DNA of 53,649 nucleotides from Candidatus Woesearchaeota archaeon CG10_big_fil_rev_8_21_14_0_10_37_12 (GCA_002762795.1 PCYA01000009.1:69059-122707), one strand, 5' to 3'. Positions 25,996 to 34,115 are shown, counted from the stretch's first letter. Program-made: numbers and translations. The notes: a model not told the origin generated them from the sequence alone.

Positions 25996-28068
25996 TCAAA
26001 TTTTTATTTTTTCTTGAAGTTTTTTAATAGCTTCTTGTTCTATCTTGCCAATTGTTGCAGGAGAGAGTCTTTTTCCAAAAAGAGAACCCGCGTCTTTTTG
26101 GCTAAGTACTGCGCCTTTTCTCCCTTTCTTTTCAACACCTCTTGCTTTTTTCAGACCATATCTAACCTGCAAAACGTGTCTTTCTGTTGGTGAAAGTGAA
26201 GCTAAAAGCTCGTGAACAAAACTTTCTCTTTTTTTCCTTTCATCTTCATCATAAACCAGCTCTCTATCATCTTGTAACAATGTTACCAGTTCAGCACCAT
26301 CTTCACCCAACGGAGTAAAAAGTGAAACATTCCGACGATTCTTTCGTAACTCTCTGAAAATCCTGCGTTTTATCACAGCTATAGCAAAATTTGAGAACTT
26401 CCCTTTTGAAGGATTATGCTCTTTTACCGCAGTCATCAACCCCTCATCTGCTGCAACAGCATACAGTTCAGCATCAACACCAATCAATCTTGCAGTAACA
26501 TTGATAAGCTCACGATTCGCATCATACAAAAACCACTCAAGCATTCTCACATTATCAACAGCAGGACGTATTCCTTCCAAACTCTCAAGCCATAACGCAA
26601 CATCATCCAAAGAATGTTCTCCACCCAACGCGTACAAAGAATCAAAACCACGAGAACTCATAAAACCTTCAAGAGAATGAAGCGATCTTCTTGTCGCATC
26701 AATCGCATCAACAGAAACCCCAAGCAAAGACCTTGCTTCAAGCAAAGCAACAAACGCATCTCTCTGAGCCTCTTCAGAAAAGCCACATTCACCAAAATCA
26801 TACAACTTTTCTGCAATCTCCAAAAGACTTCTTTGTTGAACATCATCAACTTTCCCTGCAAGCGCAGATAGTAAACGAAGACTCCCTCTAGAACCCCAGT
26901 CGCCAACCAAACGTAAATATTCACGCGGAAGAACCAACTGCCCTCTTCCAGAACCCTTTTTAACTTTAAAACAAGGCGCTCGCTCATCAAGCAAACAGCG
27001 CATTCGCCCGTGAATTGTAGATAACGGAACACCCAACTCACGAGAAATATGCGCAGGCGTCAACAAAGAATCATACAAAAGAGAAAGAACACCTGCACCC
27101 TGAAACAACTCATCAACACCATACGTTGCACTAAAATAATCAACAACATACCCTCCTCTCACTTGACGCTCGCCATCAGCAGTTCTCACAACACCCTTAT
27201 CAGAACCAACACGCAACAACTTACGAAAATGATGCGCAGGCAAACCTCTCCGCTCAAGATCAGAAGGCGAATACCACCCATCACGATCAAGCGCAGCAAC
27301 ACCAGCATCAAGAGATTTTCGCGCAGACAAAACAGCACCACGAACAACACTCAAGTCTGCCTCACTTACTTTTCCATCCACAACACCCAACTCTCCAAAC
27401 AACGATTTTAACGCAAAAAAACCAACACCCAATTTATCTGCAAGACCAACCAAACCACAATCGGCAGAAGAAACAGGCCTTGCCTTTTTTGTCTCATCAC
27501 ACACATAAGGTGGAAACAACAAAAAATGATGACCGCCAGCAACATAACACACACCTTCACCAGCAATCTTTTCAACTAATGCACGAGGAGTTGCGTTAGG
27601 ATCATAACCCAAACGCTCGCCGACCTTACGACCAGACAACCAACCCTCTTTCTTCAATGCCTTGAATAACTCACGACCAGTTATTGGTTCATGACCAAAC
27701 TCACAAGCCTTACCAATCTGTGCAGGATAATAACTCTGATCAGCCCGTAGCTTACGCATACCCTCAACAGCACGCTTTGCTTTCTCAGCAGATGTCAACA
27801 CAGGCTTTTCTTGTCTTCGACGCTCATGAGAAAAACGATACCATCTCTTCGGATCAGCACGCTCAGCAAGTCCAGATTCGCCACGTTCACGCAGAACCTC
27901 TTGCACATGAGTGAGACCGTTGTAATAACTGCCAAAATGCGTTTTCAAACCATCAGCAGTATACGGATCACGCGCAGCCATATTTTTCCTGTCAAGATCA
28001 ACACCACTGCGAACATAACCAATAAACGCCTCAACATGCTCATCAGCAGACCGATAACCCTTGCCCAT
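25996..28068 (-). CDS. Sigma-70-family protein with long HTH-containing N-terminus
   Basis: 690 residues from ATG 28068. The C-terminal 175 residues look like a sigma factor. Region 2 (about 515-575) has DEGLMTAVKEHNPSKGKFSNF then AIAVIKRRIFRELRKNRR. A 3.2-like linker VSLFTPLGEDGAELVTLLQD follows, and region 4 (about 618-686) has LASLSPTERHVLQVRYGL with a final HTH LSPATIGKIEQEAIKKL. The N-terminal ~500 residues hold several HTH-like segments (about 132-167, 263-294, 335-366). The start is set by a TATA block 26 nt upstream that is identical to the one before the gene at 28995. Archaea normally use TBP/TFB instead of sigma. It could act as an initiation factor or as a repurposed DNA-binding regulator. 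Confidence 0.85.
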   Translation of the reverse strand: MGKGYRSADEHVEAFIGYVRSGVDLDRKNMAARDPYTADGLKTHFGSYYNGLTHVQEVLRERGESGLAERADPKRWYRFSHERRRQEKPVLTSAEKAKRAVEGMRKLRADQSYYPAQIGKACEFGHEPITGRELFKALKKEGWLSGRKVGERLGYDPNATPRALVEKIAGEGVCYVAGGHHFLLFPPYVCDETKKARPVSSADCGLVGLADKLGVGFFALKSLFGELGVVDGKVSEADLSVVRGAVLSARKSLDAGVAALDRDGWYSPSDLERRGLPAHHFRKLLRVGSDKGVVRTADGERQVRGGYVVDYFSATYGVDELFQGAGVLSLLYDSLLTPAHISRELGVPLSTIHGRMRCLLDERAPCFKVKKGSGRGQLVLPREYLRLVGDWGSRGSLRLLSALAGKVDDVQQRSLLEIAEKLYDFGECGFSEEAQRDAFVALLEARSLLGVSVDAIDATRRSLHSLEGFMSSRGFDSLYALGGEHSLDDVALWLESLEGIRPAVDNVRMLEWFLYDANRELINVTARLIGVDAELYAVAADEGLMTAVKEHNPSKGKFSNFAIAVIKRRIFRELRKNRRNVSLFTPLGEDGAELVTLLQDDRELVYDEDERKKRESFVHELLASLSPTERHVLQVRYGLKKARGVEKKGRKGAVLSQKDAGSLFGKRLSPATIGKIEQEAIKKLQEKIKI

Positions 28069-28098
28069 AGTGTAGATTAAAAAAACAAACTTTAAATT
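28069..28098 (-). promoter_or_regulatory. Promoter of sigma-like gene 1, identical block to sigma-like gene 2
   Basis: Read on the minus strand, AATTTAAAGTTTGTTTTT (28098-28081) contains the TATA core TTTAAA. It is followed by 12 nt and then the ATG at 28068. The same 18 bases and the same 12-nt spacer length occur before the ATG at 29768. The distance fits a leaderless transcript. Confidence 0.7.
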
Positions 28099-28163
28099 AA
28101 TTATTCTTTTTGAACCACATACTTTTAAATAACACAAGACTTCAACAATTCTGGGGTGATTAC

Positions 28164-28250
28164 ATGGCAGTTCCAGTAAACTACAAAGAAAAACGCAAAA
28201 ACCAAGAACTAGAATCTTTCTTCGAGGAACCAGCCGAAAAAGATGCTTGA
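28164..28250 (+). CDS. 28-residue microprotein with PCNA-box-like motif, coupled to NucS
   Basis: A small ORF with a strong ribosome-binding site (GGGGTGAT) and TATA box (TTTTAAATA near 28128). Its last codons overlap the NucS start (ATGCTTGA), which indicates translational coupling. The product is highly charged and contains NQELESFF (residues 13-20). That fits the PCNA-interaction pattern x-x-x-L-x-x-F-F apart from Asn in place of the usual Gln. NucS itself ends with a similar box. A role in recruiting or regulating the sliding clamp is an inference; the ORF could also be only a translational leader. Confidence 0.6.
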   Translation: MAVPVNYKEKRKNQELESFFEEPAEKDA

Positions 28251-28986
28251 ACCACAAGACTACTGCACACTATTACAAGATGCACTTACAAGAAATGAAA
28301 CAATTGTATTCTCTTGTAAGTGCAAAGTGCGTTACTCAGGCAGAGCAGAAAGCCATTTGGATTGGGGAGACAGAATTGTAATGATCAAATCAGACAATGC
28401 ACTAATAGTTCACCAACCATTCGGCAATGCTCCAATAAATTACATGAAACCAAACACAACACATACACTTCGTTATTCTGACAAAGAATTTGTTTTATCA
28501 AGCACCAATCTTGCACAAAAAGAAACCATGACTATAAACATAGACAAAATACATTTCTTTAACACACACAAACTGGAAGATGGACAAGCAATTAACGTTA
28601 TGGGCACAGAAATGGACATGAGCAACATGATCTACAAAAATCCTGAGTTGATTGAAGAAGGATTCAGACCAGTAAGCCAAGAAGAACAAACAAAATACGG
28701 ATTCATTGACGTTATGGGAGTAGACAAAAATGGAGTGTTGACACTTGTTGAGTGTAAACGATATCGAGCTGAGCTCTCTGCAGTCACACAATTACGCCGC
28801 TATGTAGAAAAAATAATGGTCAGCAAAGGAATTACAAAAGTACGCGGAATAATTGCTGCCCCGAAAATAACCCAAAACGCAGAAAAAATGCTGCAAGACT
28901 GGGGATTCGAATTCAAAGAAATAAGACCACCAAAATACTTAGAAGACTATCATAAAAAGCAGAGCAGGCTGGATGGTTTTCATTAA
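28243..28986 (+). CDS. nucS: NucS/EndoMS mismatch endonuclease
   Basis: 247 residues, normal length for the family. The N-terminal DNA-binding half includes GRAESHLDWGDRIVMIKSD. The C-terminal RecB-like nuclease domain has GFIDVMGVDKNGVLTLVECKRY, with Asp, Glu-x-Lys catalytic residues, followed by AVTQLRRYVE. The last residues QSRLDGFH match a PCNA-interaction box (Q-x-x-L-x-x-F). NucS makes double-strand cuts at mismatches in archaea and actinobacteria. It is coupled to the upstream microprotein and lies between the two sigma-like genes. Confidence 0.95.
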   Translation: MLEPQDYCTLLQDALTRNETIVFSCKCKVRYSGRAESHLDWGDRIVMIKSDNALIVHQPFGNAPINYMKPNTTHTLRYSDKEFVLSSTNLAQKETMTINIDKIHFFNTHKLEDGQAINVMGTEMDMSNMIYKNPELIEEGFRPVSQEEQTKYGFIDVMGVDKNGVLTLVECKRYRAELSAVTQLRRYVEKIMVSKGITKVRGIIAAPKITQNAEKMLQDWGFEFKEIRPPKYLEDYHKKQSRLDGFH

Positions 28987-28994
28987 ACTAACTC

Positions 28995-29768
28995 TCAATC
29001 AAGCAAGGCATACATATCTTCTAACTTTTTATTTTGACTGAGTTTGTTTAACGCGCCCTTTTTTATCTGCCTCACCCTCTCACGCGAAAAATTAAAAGTC
29101 CTTCCAATTTCTTCAAGAGTATGACGATCTCCTGTTAACCCAAAATACCAACTAACCACTTGCTTTTCGCGAAAGGAAAGACCAGAAAGAGCTGAATTAA
29201 TACAGTCTCTCAGCCGATCAACCTCGCCTTCGCTCAAAATTTCTAAAGGCGTTTTCTGAGAACTTGCAAGACCATCTATAAGATCTCCGTTTTCTCCTGC
29301 TGGATGCCACAAAGAAACTCCATCCTTACGTTGTATTCGAAGAGCACGCAAAACACGGTTTTTTATTGCTTTATATCCATAACTAGTAAATGCAAAACCT
29401 CTTGAAGGGTCATATCCTTGAACAGCACTCATTAAGCCTTCCTGAGCTTCCTGTAATAAAGGATCTTCTAAATATATGCCAAGTCTTTCACCAACATAAC
29501 CTATCAACCCGTAGTTAGCAACATAAAGACCAAACTCTGCATGACGCAATGCCGCTCTACTATCACGAATAACATCATCAGCATCATTGCCCTCTTCAGC
29601 ACCATTAATTGCATATCTTAAAGTATAAGCAAGATCAAATACTTCCTTCTTACTTCTAGAAGACACAATACCTTCTGGATTTACAAGTTCTTTGAGTCTT
29701 TCAACAGTTCTAATAATTTCATTCAAACCATCATCTTTCCCATTCACACCCTCACGAGTAGCATCCAT
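28995..29768 (-). CDS. Sigma-70-family protein (compact)
   Basis: 257 residues from ATG 29768. Region 2 (about 72-145) contains LLQEAQEGLMSAVQGYDPSR then GFAFTSYGYKAIKNRVLRAL, which matches the core-binding and -10-recognition helices of sigma-70. A 3.2-like linker (SLWHPAGENGDLIDGL) leads to region 4 (about 190-246): LSFREKQVVSWYFGL, HTLEEIGRTFNFSRERVRQI and KKGALNKL, an almost textbook sigma region 4 with its HTH. Region 3.0-3.1 is missing or minimal. It shares an 18-base promoter block with the other sigma-like gene. The surrounding genes are archaeal, so contamination is unlikely but should be excluded. Confidence 0.9.
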   Translation of the reverse strand: MDATREGVNGKDDGLNEIIRTVERLKELVNPEGIVSSRSKKEVFDLAYTLRYAINGAEEGNDADDVIRDSRAALRHAEFGLYVANYGLIGYVGERLGIYLEDPLLQEAQEGLMSAVQGYDPSRGFAFTSYGYKAIKNRVLRALRIQRKDGVSLWHPAGENGDLIDGLASSQKTPLEILSEGEVDRLRDCINSALSGLSFREKQVVSWYFGLTGDRHTLEEIGRTFNFSRERVRQIKKGALNKLSQNKKLEDMYALLD

Positions 29769-29798
29769 ACCAACAAAGAGAAAAACAAACTTTAAATT
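29769..29798 (-). promoter_or_regulatory. Promoter of sigma-like gene 2
   Basis: AATTTAAAGTTTGTTTTT (29798-29781, minus strand) followed by 12 nt and the ATG at 29768 duplicates the block at 28098-28081. The sequences outside the block differ, so the identity is not simply a long recent duplication. Confidence 0.7.
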
Positions 29799-29886: not shown

Positions 29887-30777
29887 ATGGGTGATATTGA
29901 ATTTCAGAAAAGGTTAAACGAAGAAGAAATCACTGAACTGTTACGAAAAATAACATTCAGAGGATTATATGATGAACACGGAAATAAACTACATCCATAC
30001 AAAGACGCAAAATTTTCTCTAGTGAAAGTACACCCGCCAAAACACCCAACAAGCTTTCCGCAAATGATGCACGAATTGCAACCATACCCGCTTTTTACTG
30101 CACAACCAACTATCTACAAAACACAAACAGACATGATGTCCGAAATTGATACTTTTTTACAGACTTTGGGCAAGCGGATACACACACTTGGCTTTGAAGG
30201 AATATTTTACAATTGGAAAGACAAAGGACAATTTCATGTTCTTCCACCAATCATTGAAAAACACAGTTACCCATTACTTAACGGAGTTATTGACCTGAAA
30301 AAAATTGCTGGAAAATTCAAAGGGGCATACGTTAAAGACGCAAAAAATAACCTGCACGACATTTCAAAACCGTTATTGCGTGATTATCACGTAGACAAAG
30401 AAAGCTCTGTTAAATATTTGAACTTATTCAATCAAAACGTTGAGCTGATCAATTATGGCATGCGATTCAATGGGCCAAGCGAATTCTACATTATTTGCGA
30501 CGGAAGCCACAGAATGGACTACGCACTAGAAATACTCAACGAACCCATCACAGCAATACTAGTAGAATCAGAAAATTTGTTACCGTATTATGCCTTGCCA
30601 ATGCCCTTTAGACCAACAACAAGACTCACAAGCAAAGACGCAGAAAAAATGTACGCAAAATTAGAACGAGACAAAGTACACTTACTTAATGACTTCATCA
30701 AAAAAGTATTACATTACGATTGGGTAGAAGGGGGACTCTATGTTAGCAAACTCAGAACAAACACAACCATTCACTGA
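29887..30777 (+). CDS. ParB/Srx-like domain protein, first gene of pyrimidine cluster
   Basis: 296 residues from ATG 29887 (TATA TTTTATA near 29858, leaderless). The recognisable part is a ParB-like core near residues 195-225: FYIICDGSHRMDYALEILNE followed by a PITAILVE strand, matching the G/D-G-x-H-R helix of the ParB N-terminal fold. ParB-family proteins bind CTP or ATP. The rest is not recognised. It overlaps the cytidine deaminase gene by 38 bases, so it belongs to the nucleotide operon. A nucleotide-sensing role is a guess from that context. Confidence 0.5.
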   Translation: MGDIEFQKRLNEEEITELLRKITFRGLYDEHGNKLHPYKDAKFSLVKVHPPKHPTSFPQMMHELQPYPLFTAQPTIYKTQTDMMSEIDTFLQTLGKRIHTLGFEGIFYNWKDKGQFHVLPPIIEKHSYPLLNGVIDLKKIAGKFKGAYVKDAKNNLHDISKPLLRDYHVDKESSVKYLNLFNQNVELINYGMRFNGPSEFYIICDGSHRMDYALEILNEPITAILVESENLLPYYALPMPFRPTTRLTSKDAEKMYAKLERDKVHLLNDFIKKVLHYDWVEGGLYVSKLRTNTTIH

Positions 30778-31618
30778 AATTATTAGCAAATTAAAACTTC
30801 ATCTTGACAGATCATGGTTAAAACATGACAAAACAAGTTTTAACAGTGCAAGCGTAGCAGTAACAGACAACACATTACACTATAGTGGTTTGGTGGAGAG
30901 TAGAACGCACTTGCTTGATGTCACATCAGAACATGCAGTACTTGCCTTAGCAACAGCAGCAAAAGATCCACATATTAAAGAAATTGTAAGCATGGTTCAA
31001 GGAAACTTTGAACTTAGCCCTCTGATTATTAAAATACTCGCAGATCACACGCGAAGAACAGGAACACCAATAAAATACACTGTTTTCGATATTGATGGCA
31101 AAGAATTATTTACTTGTGACAATGCATCTGATTTGTACTATGCGCCAAAAACAGAAATACTTGAAAAAATAAAAACATGGGAGCCAAGAAAAAATAAGAC
31201 AACTATTGACCAATCGATACCAATAGAACAACAACTCAGAACATATGCAGAAAAAGGAATGCAAACACACTTTTCAGCAGGAACAAAGAGCTTATACGGC
31301 GCAGCAGTCATTGCAAACGGCAAAATATATTATTCTGGCGTGTATAGTAGCTTTGACAAACGACTTAATTTGCACGCAGAAATGGTAGCAGCAATAAGTG
31401 CAATAATGGATGGAAACAGAGAAATCACACACGTTGGATTAATCAGCACAAAATTTGAAAAAGAACCATGTCACATGTGCGGATGCTGCAGACAATTCTT
31501 CAGCGAAATACAACAAAAAACAGGAAAAGAAATTAATATTGTTGCATTTTCAATGAACGGGAAAAACTCTCAACACAGATTAAGCGAATACTTGCCGTAT
31601 GGCTGGCACTCAGGTTAA
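30740..31618 (+). CDS. Cytidine deaminase-like protein with degenerate N-terminal copy
   Basis: 292 residues, like E. coli Cdd in length. The C-terminal domain is catalytic: LHAEMVAAISAI (zinc-ligand position and proton-shuttle Glu) and EPCHMCGCCRQFF (PCxxC zinc motif). It ends YLPYGW as in Cdd enzymes. The N-terminal domain (about 10-150) is a degenerate copy with SEHAVLALATAA but no PCxxC. The enzyme should deaminate cytidine or deoxycytidine to the uridine form. It overlaps the ParB-like gene and precedes the thymidylate synthase-like gene, giving a C-to-U-to-T order. Confidence 0.82.
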   Translation: MLANSEQTQPFTEIISKLKLHLDRSWLKHDKTSFNSASVAVTDNTLHYSGLVESRTHLLDVTSEHAVLALATAAKDPHIKEIVSMVQGNFELSPLIIKILADHTRRTGTPIKYTVFDIDGKELFTCDNASDLYYAPKTEILEKIKTWEPRKNKTTIDQSIPIEQQLRTYAEKGMQTHFSAGTKSLYGAAVIANGKIYYSGVYSSFDKRLNLHAEMVAAISAIMDGNREITHVGLISTKFEKEPCHMCGCCRQFFSEIQQKTGKEINIVAFSMNGKNSQHRLSEYLPYGWHSG

Positions 31619-31706
31619 TTTTTCCTGTCTCTTTTACGACTTTCTACCAGGAAATATAGTCTACATTTCACAAAATCTTTAAAGCACTTTAAATAGCAAA
31701 AAAGTC

Positions 31707-34115
31707 ATGAAGTTTCCATTAGTGGACGCCTTCTTAATCTGTCCAGAAGAAGGAAAAAGGGGGAAAATAGGCATATGCACAAACATGCTAGCTCCCACAA
31801 TGGTCGTAAACGAAATACCATTTGATCAAAGACAAGACATAGCAGCAATGGGAAGCCTAGTAGTAAGCAGAGACGGCACAGAACGAATGATAGTTAACAG
31901 TTTAAGCCATCCAACCATAGAATACATCGTTCTATTTGGTGAAGAAACACTAAGCTTCAAACCAAGCACAAACTTATTGCTTGCACTAATGCAAGGTTAT
32001 GATGAAACACAAAAAGGGAACACAATCAAAGGAGGACAAGGAGTAAGCCACCAATACCCAAGCATTAAACTGGAATTACTCAACCTATTCCGAGACAGAG
32101 TAAAAGTCATACCCTTGTACAGCCACCACGAATCCTGCAAAGACATTGTAACAAAATATTTGGAATGGTTAAAACCAAAAGTATCAAAACAAGTATACTC
32201 ATCAATTCTAAAAATAAGAGAACAGAAAAAAATCTACTATGACAGCTTACAGGAACATCTTAAGCTGCTAACAAAAGAACCAGCAACAAACACAGAACCA
32301 GCACAACTCAATGCAAAAGACTTCCAACACTTACAACCGCCAATCGTTCAAGTAACTGGAGAAGACGAACAAATCAGTTGTCCATTCGAAGCACTAAAAG
32401 AAGGAAATGATATTGTGTTAAACATTGACTTCGGAGAAAAGCACTACCAAATAAAAGGTCAGGACAGCTGGTTAATGGCATACTCTTTAATGGTTTTTAT
32501 GAATGAAAACAAACTAAACTTACCACCATTACAACAACTCTTACTTGGAGCAGAACTTTCACGCATAGAAATAGAAACCAAAAATAACATAACAAGCAAA
32601 CAATACATTAAACCAGAACTGACAAACTCAGAACGAACACAAATACCCATACAACCACAAACAATACTCAAAGCAGACAAAGAATACTACTACAAATTCT
32701 TCCACAAAGAAGAACAAATCTGCGTACAAAGCTTAGCACACGACACATGCACAAGCGTTTTTGAACTAAGAAGCAAAAAACTCATACCACTCATCAAAAA
32801 AATCGCGCAAGAAAATAGATTCCAACAGTACGAGCAAGAAATGCTTCATAGATTTGACGTAGGAATAGAATTAGGAAGAGCAGCAATAGCACTCGAAACA
32901 GGAAACAGCTACTTCCAAGACTTCAGAAACATATTCACACTCAACACAACAAAATTCCCATTGCTCATATCAGAAGCAGACAGTTTTTTGAGAAACCATC
33001 AAAACATCATTACAAAAATTTACACGCAAGGACTCACAATGCAGCACGCAGATGCACACAAAGGAACAATGCGAGAAGCAACAACATTGGCGATTTATCG
33101 CGATGCAGCAAACACATTAAAACATTTTCCAAGAATTTATGCAAGCGGAGAAAAACTCCCAGAAGACATGCGCAAAGAATACGCAGCAAACTTACTTAAT
33201 CCAGGAAATGATGGAACATACACATATGGACAAAGAACAAGAGCCTTCTTTGGAACAGACCAATTGCAGAATGCAATAAACCACTTCAAAACAAGCACAG
33301 AACCATTCGTTATCCAACGATTTGATTATACTAACGATATGAAAGTTATAAAAACAGACGTTATCGAGAACGGAAAAGTCGTGCGAACACGATTAGAAGC
33401 AACAAAAGATCCTTGTTTATCCCATGATATTTACTTTGTACAAGACGGTAAACTGCACTCATTCCACTTAGCACGCGCACACAACATTGTAAATGCATAT
33501 CCGGAAAACATTTTTGGCCTGCACGATGCATATGATAAAACGATTTCTGAAGGAACAGGCATTCCTCTTGGAGACATGTATGTGCTATCAAGCAGAGGAA
33601 ACATTCTTCTGTTGACAGAGGAACAAAAAGCAAAAAGATTAATCGCAGAACCAAGTAAACCAGTAGCAGACATGAGCACCGCAAGCGGGCCGTACGATCT
33701 TAAATCAAGTAAATCTGTAAAAGGAGTTTCTTACAGAGAACTACCACTACAAGAATTGCATGAAAAACCAAACCATCCCTGCCTTGAACGATTAGAGAAT
33801 TATGAAGGACAAAACATTATTGTAAAAGCAGCAGAATACTTGCGAGACAGAGGAGATACGCACAACAATCCAATCATCGGAACATACAACCCAAGAACAG
33901 GCAAATTAGGAGAAGCAGAACGATTAGTGTTTTTACAAGCAAACCAACGAGGAGGAAAATTGTATATTGCGGCAACATTTGTCAACGGAACTACAAAAAA
34001 ACTTCCAAGAGATGTAGAGTTATGTCATTACATAGCAACACAATACGGCAAAATACTTAACTTGCCACTCGGTCAACTTTATCTGTTTTATGTACCGATG
34101 AGGGAAGATGAATAA
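31707..34115 (+). CDS. Thymidylate synthase-like protein with large N-terminal fusion
   Basis: 802 residues; the TATA core TTTAAA (31678-31683) places the start at ATG 31707. The C-terminal ~330 residues are ThyA-like: YGQRTRAFFGTDQLQNAI, Cys570 in KDPCLSHDIYF (catalytic position), LARAHNIVNAYPENIFGLHD (nucleotide-binding segment) and LPLGQLYLFYVP. The N-terminal ~170 residues (GKIGICTNML, MGSLVVSRDGTERMIV, IKGGQGVSHQYPS) resemble the MtrA/DUF4346 domain found with some archaeal ThyA proteins. The middle (about 190-480) is helical and not recognised. The family methylates dUMP or modifies pyrimidine nucleotides. The length is far above the ~260 residues of normal ThyA. Confidence 0.75.
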   Translation: MKFPLVDAFLICPEEGKRGKIGICTNMLAPTMVVNEIPFDQRQDIAAMGSLVVSRDGTERMIVNSLSHPTIEYIVLFGEETLSFKPSTNLLLALMQGYDETQKGNTIKGGQGVSHQYPSIKLELLNLFRDRVKVIPLYSHHESCKDIVTKYLEWLKPKVSKQVYSSILKIREQKKIYYDSLQEHLKLLTKEPATNTEPAQLNAKDFQHLQPPIVQVTGEDEQISCPFEALKEGNDIVLNIDFGEKHYQIKGQDSWLMAYSLMVFMNENKLNLPPLQQLLLGAELSRIEIETKNNITSKQYIKPELTNSERTQIPIQPQTILKADKEYYYKFFHKEEQICVQSLAHDTCTSVFELRSKKLIPLIKKIAQENRFQQYEQEMLHRFDVGIELGRAAIALETGNSYFQDFRNIFTLNTTKFPLLISEADSFLRNHQNIITKIYTQGLTMQHADAHKGTMREATTLAIYRDAANTLKHFPRIYASGEKLPEDMRKEYAANLLNPGNDGTYTYGQRTRAFFGTDQLQNAINHFKTSTEPFVIQRFDYTNDMKVIKTDVIENGKVVRTRLEATKDPCLSHDIYFVQDGKLHSFHLARAHNIVNAYPENIFGLHDAYDKTISEGTGIPLGDMYVLSSRGNILLLTEEQKAKRLIAEPSKPVADMSTASGPYDLKSSKSVKGVSYRELPLQELHEKPNHPCLERLENYEGQNIIVKAAEYLRDRGDTHNNPIIGTYNPRTGKLGEAERLVFLQANQRGGKLYIAATFVNGTTKKLPRDVELCHYIATQYGKILNLPLGQLYLFYVPMREDE

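Follow-up and report, generated by a model that had tools for sequence, protein, structure and literature searches.

The divide between bacterial and archaeal transcription is taught as one of sigma factors versus TBP and TFB, and two genes in the genome of Candidatus Woesearchaeota archaeon CG10_big_fil_rev_8_21_14_0_10_37_12 raise the question of what a pair of sigma-70-like proteins would do in an archaeal cell. The genes, here called SigA and SigB, lie in a stretch of 53,649 nucleotides (GCA_002762795.1, PCYA01000009.1:69059-122707), which is referred to as the window. The mechanical ORFs for both genes begin at TTG, upstream of the ATG starts set by their leaderless promoters, and the coordinates in Table 1 follow the latter.

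Table 1. Features of the sigma locus, with positions counted from the first nucleotide of the window.
Feature	Position	Strand	Size	Remarks
SigA	25996..28068	minus	690 aa	Start set by leaderless promoter
SigA promoter element	28081..28098	minus	18 nt	AATTTAAAGTTTGTTTTT
NucS (archaeal endonuclease)	28243..28986	plus		NF003270 250 bits, cut-off 216; between SigA and SigB
SigB	28995..29768	minus	257 aa	Start set by leaderless promoter
SigB promoter element	29781..29798	minus	18 nt	Identical to AATTTAAAGTTTGTTTTT, same distance to ATG

Family membership and archaeal setting

SigA and SigB are sigma-70-family proteins. In Pfam searches, SigB scored above the cut-off with both Sigma70_r4 (3.7e-15) and Sigma70_r2 (3.5e-8), and SigA just exceeded the cut-off for region 2 (2e-5, 24.7 bits against 24) and just missed that for region 4 (9.7e-5, 22.2-22.7 bits against 24.1). 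Both cleared the curated cut-off (42.9) of TIGR02937, the NCBIfam sigma-70 superfamily model, SigA with 56.5 and SigB with 66.9. When phmmer was run against solved structures, the best PDB matches of both proteins were the bacterial RpoD/SigA, with the 3.2-like linker (SL..P.GE.G) of each aligned to the RpoD finger and region 4 aligned as well. Predicted structures were generated with AlphaFold, as monomer models only, and the first matches retrieved with them by Foldseek were sigma subunits of bacterial holoenzymes (SigB E 3e-8, SigA E 2e-5). Mean pLDDT was 79 for SigB and 64 for SigA; in the SigA model, most of the C-terminal sigma part is well predicted and most of the N-terminus poorly. 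The TM-scores were low because the relative placement of domains in the models is not predicted, and the fold claim is therefore one of domain-level matches and not of overall arrangement. TFIIB cyclin-fold repeats (PF00382) produced no match to either protein at E<=1. The preliminary description of this DNA had read sigma region 2, a 3.2-like linker and region 4 in both products, and that reading is confirmed.

The preliminary description had also taken the host to be archaeal, and this is borne out by the genes around and between the sigma genes, by the promoters and by the transcription machinery. The genome (1.35 Mb in 19 contigs, 99% complete) encodes TBP and, as a separate gene on contig C10, TFB; its only Rpo1N has the length of an archaeal one, and no bacterial polymerase was found in it. 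Gene content and the parallel with published genomes place the group probably in Woesearchaeales. NucS serves as a positional anchor for the archaeal context and is probably not functionally part of the sigma pair. The window also encodes an archaeal topoisomerase I (topA_arch), ribosomal protein S15 (uS15), an archaeal signal peptidase and RtcA. The GC3 of the two sigma genes is 0.29 and 0.24, and that of their neighbours 0.23-0.38. Just past the sigma genes and on the opposite strand (window positions 30740-34115), a cytidine-deaminase-like protein adjoins one of 802 aa whose C-terminal part resembles thymidylate synthase; the two make an unusual pair for nucleotide metabolism.

The two sigma genes have the same promoter element. 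In both, a TTTAAA starts 28 nt ahead of the ATG, a position that falls within the peak of TATA-like hexamers at -26 to -31 across the window. Among the 1035 gene pairs in the window, the sigA and sigB promoters are the most alike, with an identical run of 18 nt (next best 9). With no mismatch allowed, the 16-mer TTTAAAGTTTGTTTTT occurs at only two places in the window, both of them sigma promoters, and of the three copies of the core ATTTAAAGTTTG in the whole genome, two are at the promoters of SigA and SigB. This match suggests that SigA and SigB are probably co-regulated, and possibly self-regulated.

Anatomy of the pair and contact residues of the family

SigB is built in the order sigma 2, finger 3.2, sigma 4, with sigma 3 missing, and in E. 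coli RpoD numbering it keeps Q406, E407, M413, F427, Y430, R584, E585, R588 and Q589. Of the region 2.2 clamp motif (D403, Q406, E407), it thus retains Q406 and E407 and not D403. Of the residues for the -10 element, F427 and Y430 are kept, Y425 is replaced by F and T429 by S, and W433, W434, Q437 and T440 are absent, while all four -35 recognition residues (R584, E585, R588, Q589) are in place. SigA joins an N-terminal array, spanning about residues 1-450, to a degraded sigma that has sigma 2, the finger and sigma 4 and again no sigma 3; the protein has none of the clamp motif, only F427 of the -10 residues, and none of the -35 residues. The preliminary description had treated the two proteins alike. 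This holds for their membership of the sigma-70 family, but not for their contact residues, since Q406/E407 and the -35 contacts are present in SigB and missing from SigA.

The N-terminus of SigA was searched against Pfam in pieces. One piece returned weak HTH matches and the other four returned no match; these profile matches and the HTH-like sequence point to an array of probable DNA-binding modules. A module of this N-terminus is also found in a 915-aa protein of another genome (G096; L258, minus strand) whose C-terminal sigma has apparently intact regions 2 and 4 (TLEEIGKDFDVSRERIRQIEAQALAKLK), and this 915-aa protein has some 400 aa in common with a 904-aa sigma of a further genome (G016; L064:3907-6621). 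With the layout of an HTH array followed by a sigma also present in these two loci, SigA represents a recurring architecture and no chance fusion. Near kin of SigA were not found in named genomes. A 1741-aa archaeal protein (L139:2316-7541, genome G160) carries a canonical sigma at its C-terminus behind an N-terminal part of roughly 1450 aa.

Most of the sigma proteins collected retain sigma 2, 3 and 4 together with the residues that touch clamp and promoter in bacteria. For 77 archaeal sigmas, mean identity to E. coli RpoD was 0.62 at the clamp residues, 0.60 at the -10 residues and 0.79 at the -35 residues, against 0.38 for the average column, and random residue sets reached such identity in 0.5%, 0.4% and 0.1% of draws, respectively. 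The lists of contact residues follow what is generally known of E. coli sigma-70. In the archaeal sigmas the finger motif can be recognised, with S506 in 84% followed by L in most. The aromatics for single-stranded DNA, the clamp residues and the finger have no obvious use without a polymerase.

Distribution and origin

Of 371 genomes sampled from the phylum, 127 (about a third) have a match to sigma-70 region 2, as do 30 of 57 near relatives and none of four archaeal control genomes; in the near relatives examined, only archaeal polymerase was seen. Of 72 archaeal sigma proteins scanned for domains, 71 have region 2, 71 region 4, 48 region 3 and 33 region 1.2. The preliminary description had proposed looking for the pair in related archaea, and two sigma genes do stand side by side or nearly so at 10 of about 79 loci, this window counted and a second match at L040 left out as looking like a frame break; the figure is a tally from which no rate follows, since the loci were picked partly for showing paired matches. 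The genome studied here has a third, ECF-like sigma of 179 aa (L033:5880-6419, minus strand; contig C11:46188), which shares its contig with Rpo1N, some 15 kb away, and adjoins a Rad50-like ATPase and a DEAD-box helicase.

The bacterial origin of the family is borne out by one relative (G037, L034:5446-7746), the sigma core of which shares 64% identity with a planctomycete RpoD. In the tree, built on a short, divergent alignment, this protein groups among bacterial RpoDs, so at least one acquisition was recent, and most archaeal sigmas are long-branched. The N-terminal part of the same protein, from sigma 1.2 onward, is common to other archaeal sigmas, which suggests a recent transfer or a replacement of the core. 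The tree joins SigA and SigB as nearest relatives of one another. Sigma proteins of genomes of the same genus are only about 29-40% identical. A dN/dS of 0.44, which is modest, comes from the single usable pair, the paralogues L151/L152, and not from SigA/SigB. We rejected a viral origin, as no relatives of SigA or SigB were found in IMG/VR and none of SigA in phage records; for SigB, the matches were confined to remotely related sigma factors of phages and bacteria.

Possible function and comparison with known systems

The Rpo1N clamp helices are archaeal in type and look the same in relatives with and without a sigma, and coevolution of the clamp with sigma presence was rejected on these grounds. 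This genome contains 0 exact TTGACA-TATAAT promoters, where the reversed control gives 3; within 20 kb of the window, 61 sigma-70-type promoter matches compare with 54 expected. Neither amounts to an excess. No conserved neighbour or regulon gene was found beside the sigma genes at the collected loci. Archaeal Rpo2 is not known to have the flap-tip helix, which holds sigma 4 in bacteria. One relative without a sigma (G046, contig C5) has a divergent clamp helix, and TTGACA-TATAAT matches in its genome number 13, compared with 4 in the control. Of the 13, 8 fall on a single contig, and the excess possibly reflects a bacterial contig in the bin.

Polymerase contact is weakened as a reading by the unadapted clamp, the lack of a promoter excess, the lack of a regulon neighbour, the modest dN/dS and the flap-tip helix not known from Rpo2, and backed by the residues kept in SigB, the above-average contact residues of the family and the recognisable finger. 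Binding to the archaeal RNA polymerase is plausible. The reading that we favour, tentatively and at just under an even chance, is that a duplicated bacterial-type sigma gave rise to promoter-directed regulators beside TBP/TFB, with SigB an accessory factor and SigA its partner or antagonist. SigA and SigB would then be a duplicated pair derived from a bacterial-type sigma-70 and resident in the archaeal chromosome, presumably transcribed together by the ordinary TBP/TFB machinery from the twin TATA/leaderless promoters recognised in the sequence. On this reading, SigB most likely still reads -35-like DNA through its intact region 4.2 and touches the archaeal RNA polymerase through the remnant of region 2.2 and the 3.2 finger. 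Having neither sigma 3 nor the tryptophans for the -10 element, it is probably unable alone to open such an element of the bacterial type, and it would bring the polymerase to a few promoters, or tune it there, as an accessory and not a free-standing initiation factor. SigA would most likely use the HTH-like array at its N-terminus to bind DNA and would work with or against SigB.

The main rival is plain DNA-binding regulation, in which region 4 and the HTH array are the DNA-binding domains of repressors or activators that make no polymerase contact, and sigma 2 is a mere scaffold. We rather doubt it but take it seriously: SigA, without clamp, -10 and -35 residues, still carries its array, sigma 3 and the tryptophan pair are gone from SigB, the polymerase clamp is unchanged and sigma-70-type promoters are not in excess. 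Against it, SigB retains Q406/E407 and the finger, and the family keeps clamp and single-stranded-DNA-binding residues well above background, which plain DNA binding does not need. A bolder version of polymerase contact, in which horizontally acquired sigma-70 factors, some of them array-fused, dock on the archaeal clamp in many Nanoarchaeota, replacing TFB/TFE or beside them and with promoters of their own, we regard as unlikely.

It is improbable that bacterial sigma genes have simply been gained and lost repeatedly, neutral or mildly useful, decaying and being replaced with no settled function. The patchy presence across the phylum, the close planctomycete match in one relative, the low identity within a genus and the degraded state of SigA all fit such turnover, but the ORFs are long and intact, their GC3 is host-like, an archaeal TATA promoter is conserved between both genes, motifs are kept despite deep divergence, and N-terminal architectures are common across families. 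Export of SigA and SigB as effectors that act on the bacterial polymerase of a partner or host cell is very improbable. DPANN archaea are usually symbionts, and the genome has no bacterial polymerase although the family keeps residues for contact with one. Against export, neither protein has a signal peptide or a membrane segment at its N-terminus (a single hydrophobic stretch was flagged in the window, and it precedes the true start of SigA), and no conserved secretion gene stands beside the sigma genes. An assembly chimera or bacterial contamination, which the preliminary description had named as what could undo its claim and which would account for a bacterial hallmark such as sigma-70, has a negligible chance and is excluded as far as the data allow, because NucS and the other genes that separate and flank SigA and SigB are archaeal, GC3 is host-like and the promoters have an archaeal TATA at -28; in addition, a sigma gene shares its contig with Rpo1N in two other genomes (G044 and the single-contig G035), sigma genes occur independently in over a hundred genomes, and Castelle et al. 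ruled out mis-binning for their own genomes (PMC8204110).

Residues for contact with polymerase and promoter are kept in the sigma-70 of about a third of the sampled genomes of the phylum, and should any such sigma act on the archaeal polymerase, bacterial and archaeal initiation would be partly interchangeable.

Among known systems, the bacterial group 1/2 sigma-70 factors (RpoD/SigA) are like SigA and SigB in the order sigma 2, finger 3.2, sigma 4, and the four E. coli -35 contact residues of RpoD are also those of SigB region 4.2. Unlike these factors, SigA and SigB are without sigma 3 and W433/W434, SigA has an extra N-terminal array of roughly 450 aa, and the only polymerase of the cell is archaeal. 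ECF sigma factors likewise have no sigma 3 and combine only sigma 2 with sigma 4; in contrast to them, SigA and SigB have a 3.2 finger of the RpoD type, and in SigB region 4.2 is of that type as well. MzaA, the sigma of the MZA anti-phage system, matches SigB in part, mainly in region 4 (NCBIfam/PADLOC). We rejected the identification of SigB as MzaA, given 81 bits with NF041931 against a curated cut-off of 800 and no conserved neighbour genes. The preliminary description had seen in the pair its strongest candidate for an undescribed system, and this does not stand for sigma-70 presence as such, which is not new: Castelle et al. 2021 (PMC8204110) noted Woesearchaeota sigma-70 proteins (fam00359) in one paragraph, as occurring alongside TBP/TFB/TFE and with no anti-sigma found. 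Theirs are proteins of the same kind from the same broad archaeal group, reported for presence only; the anatomy of the pair, the residue-level conservation, the gene pairing, the common TATA promoter and the N-terminal HTH-array fusion are added here and, as far as the open-licence literature shows, appear to be new.
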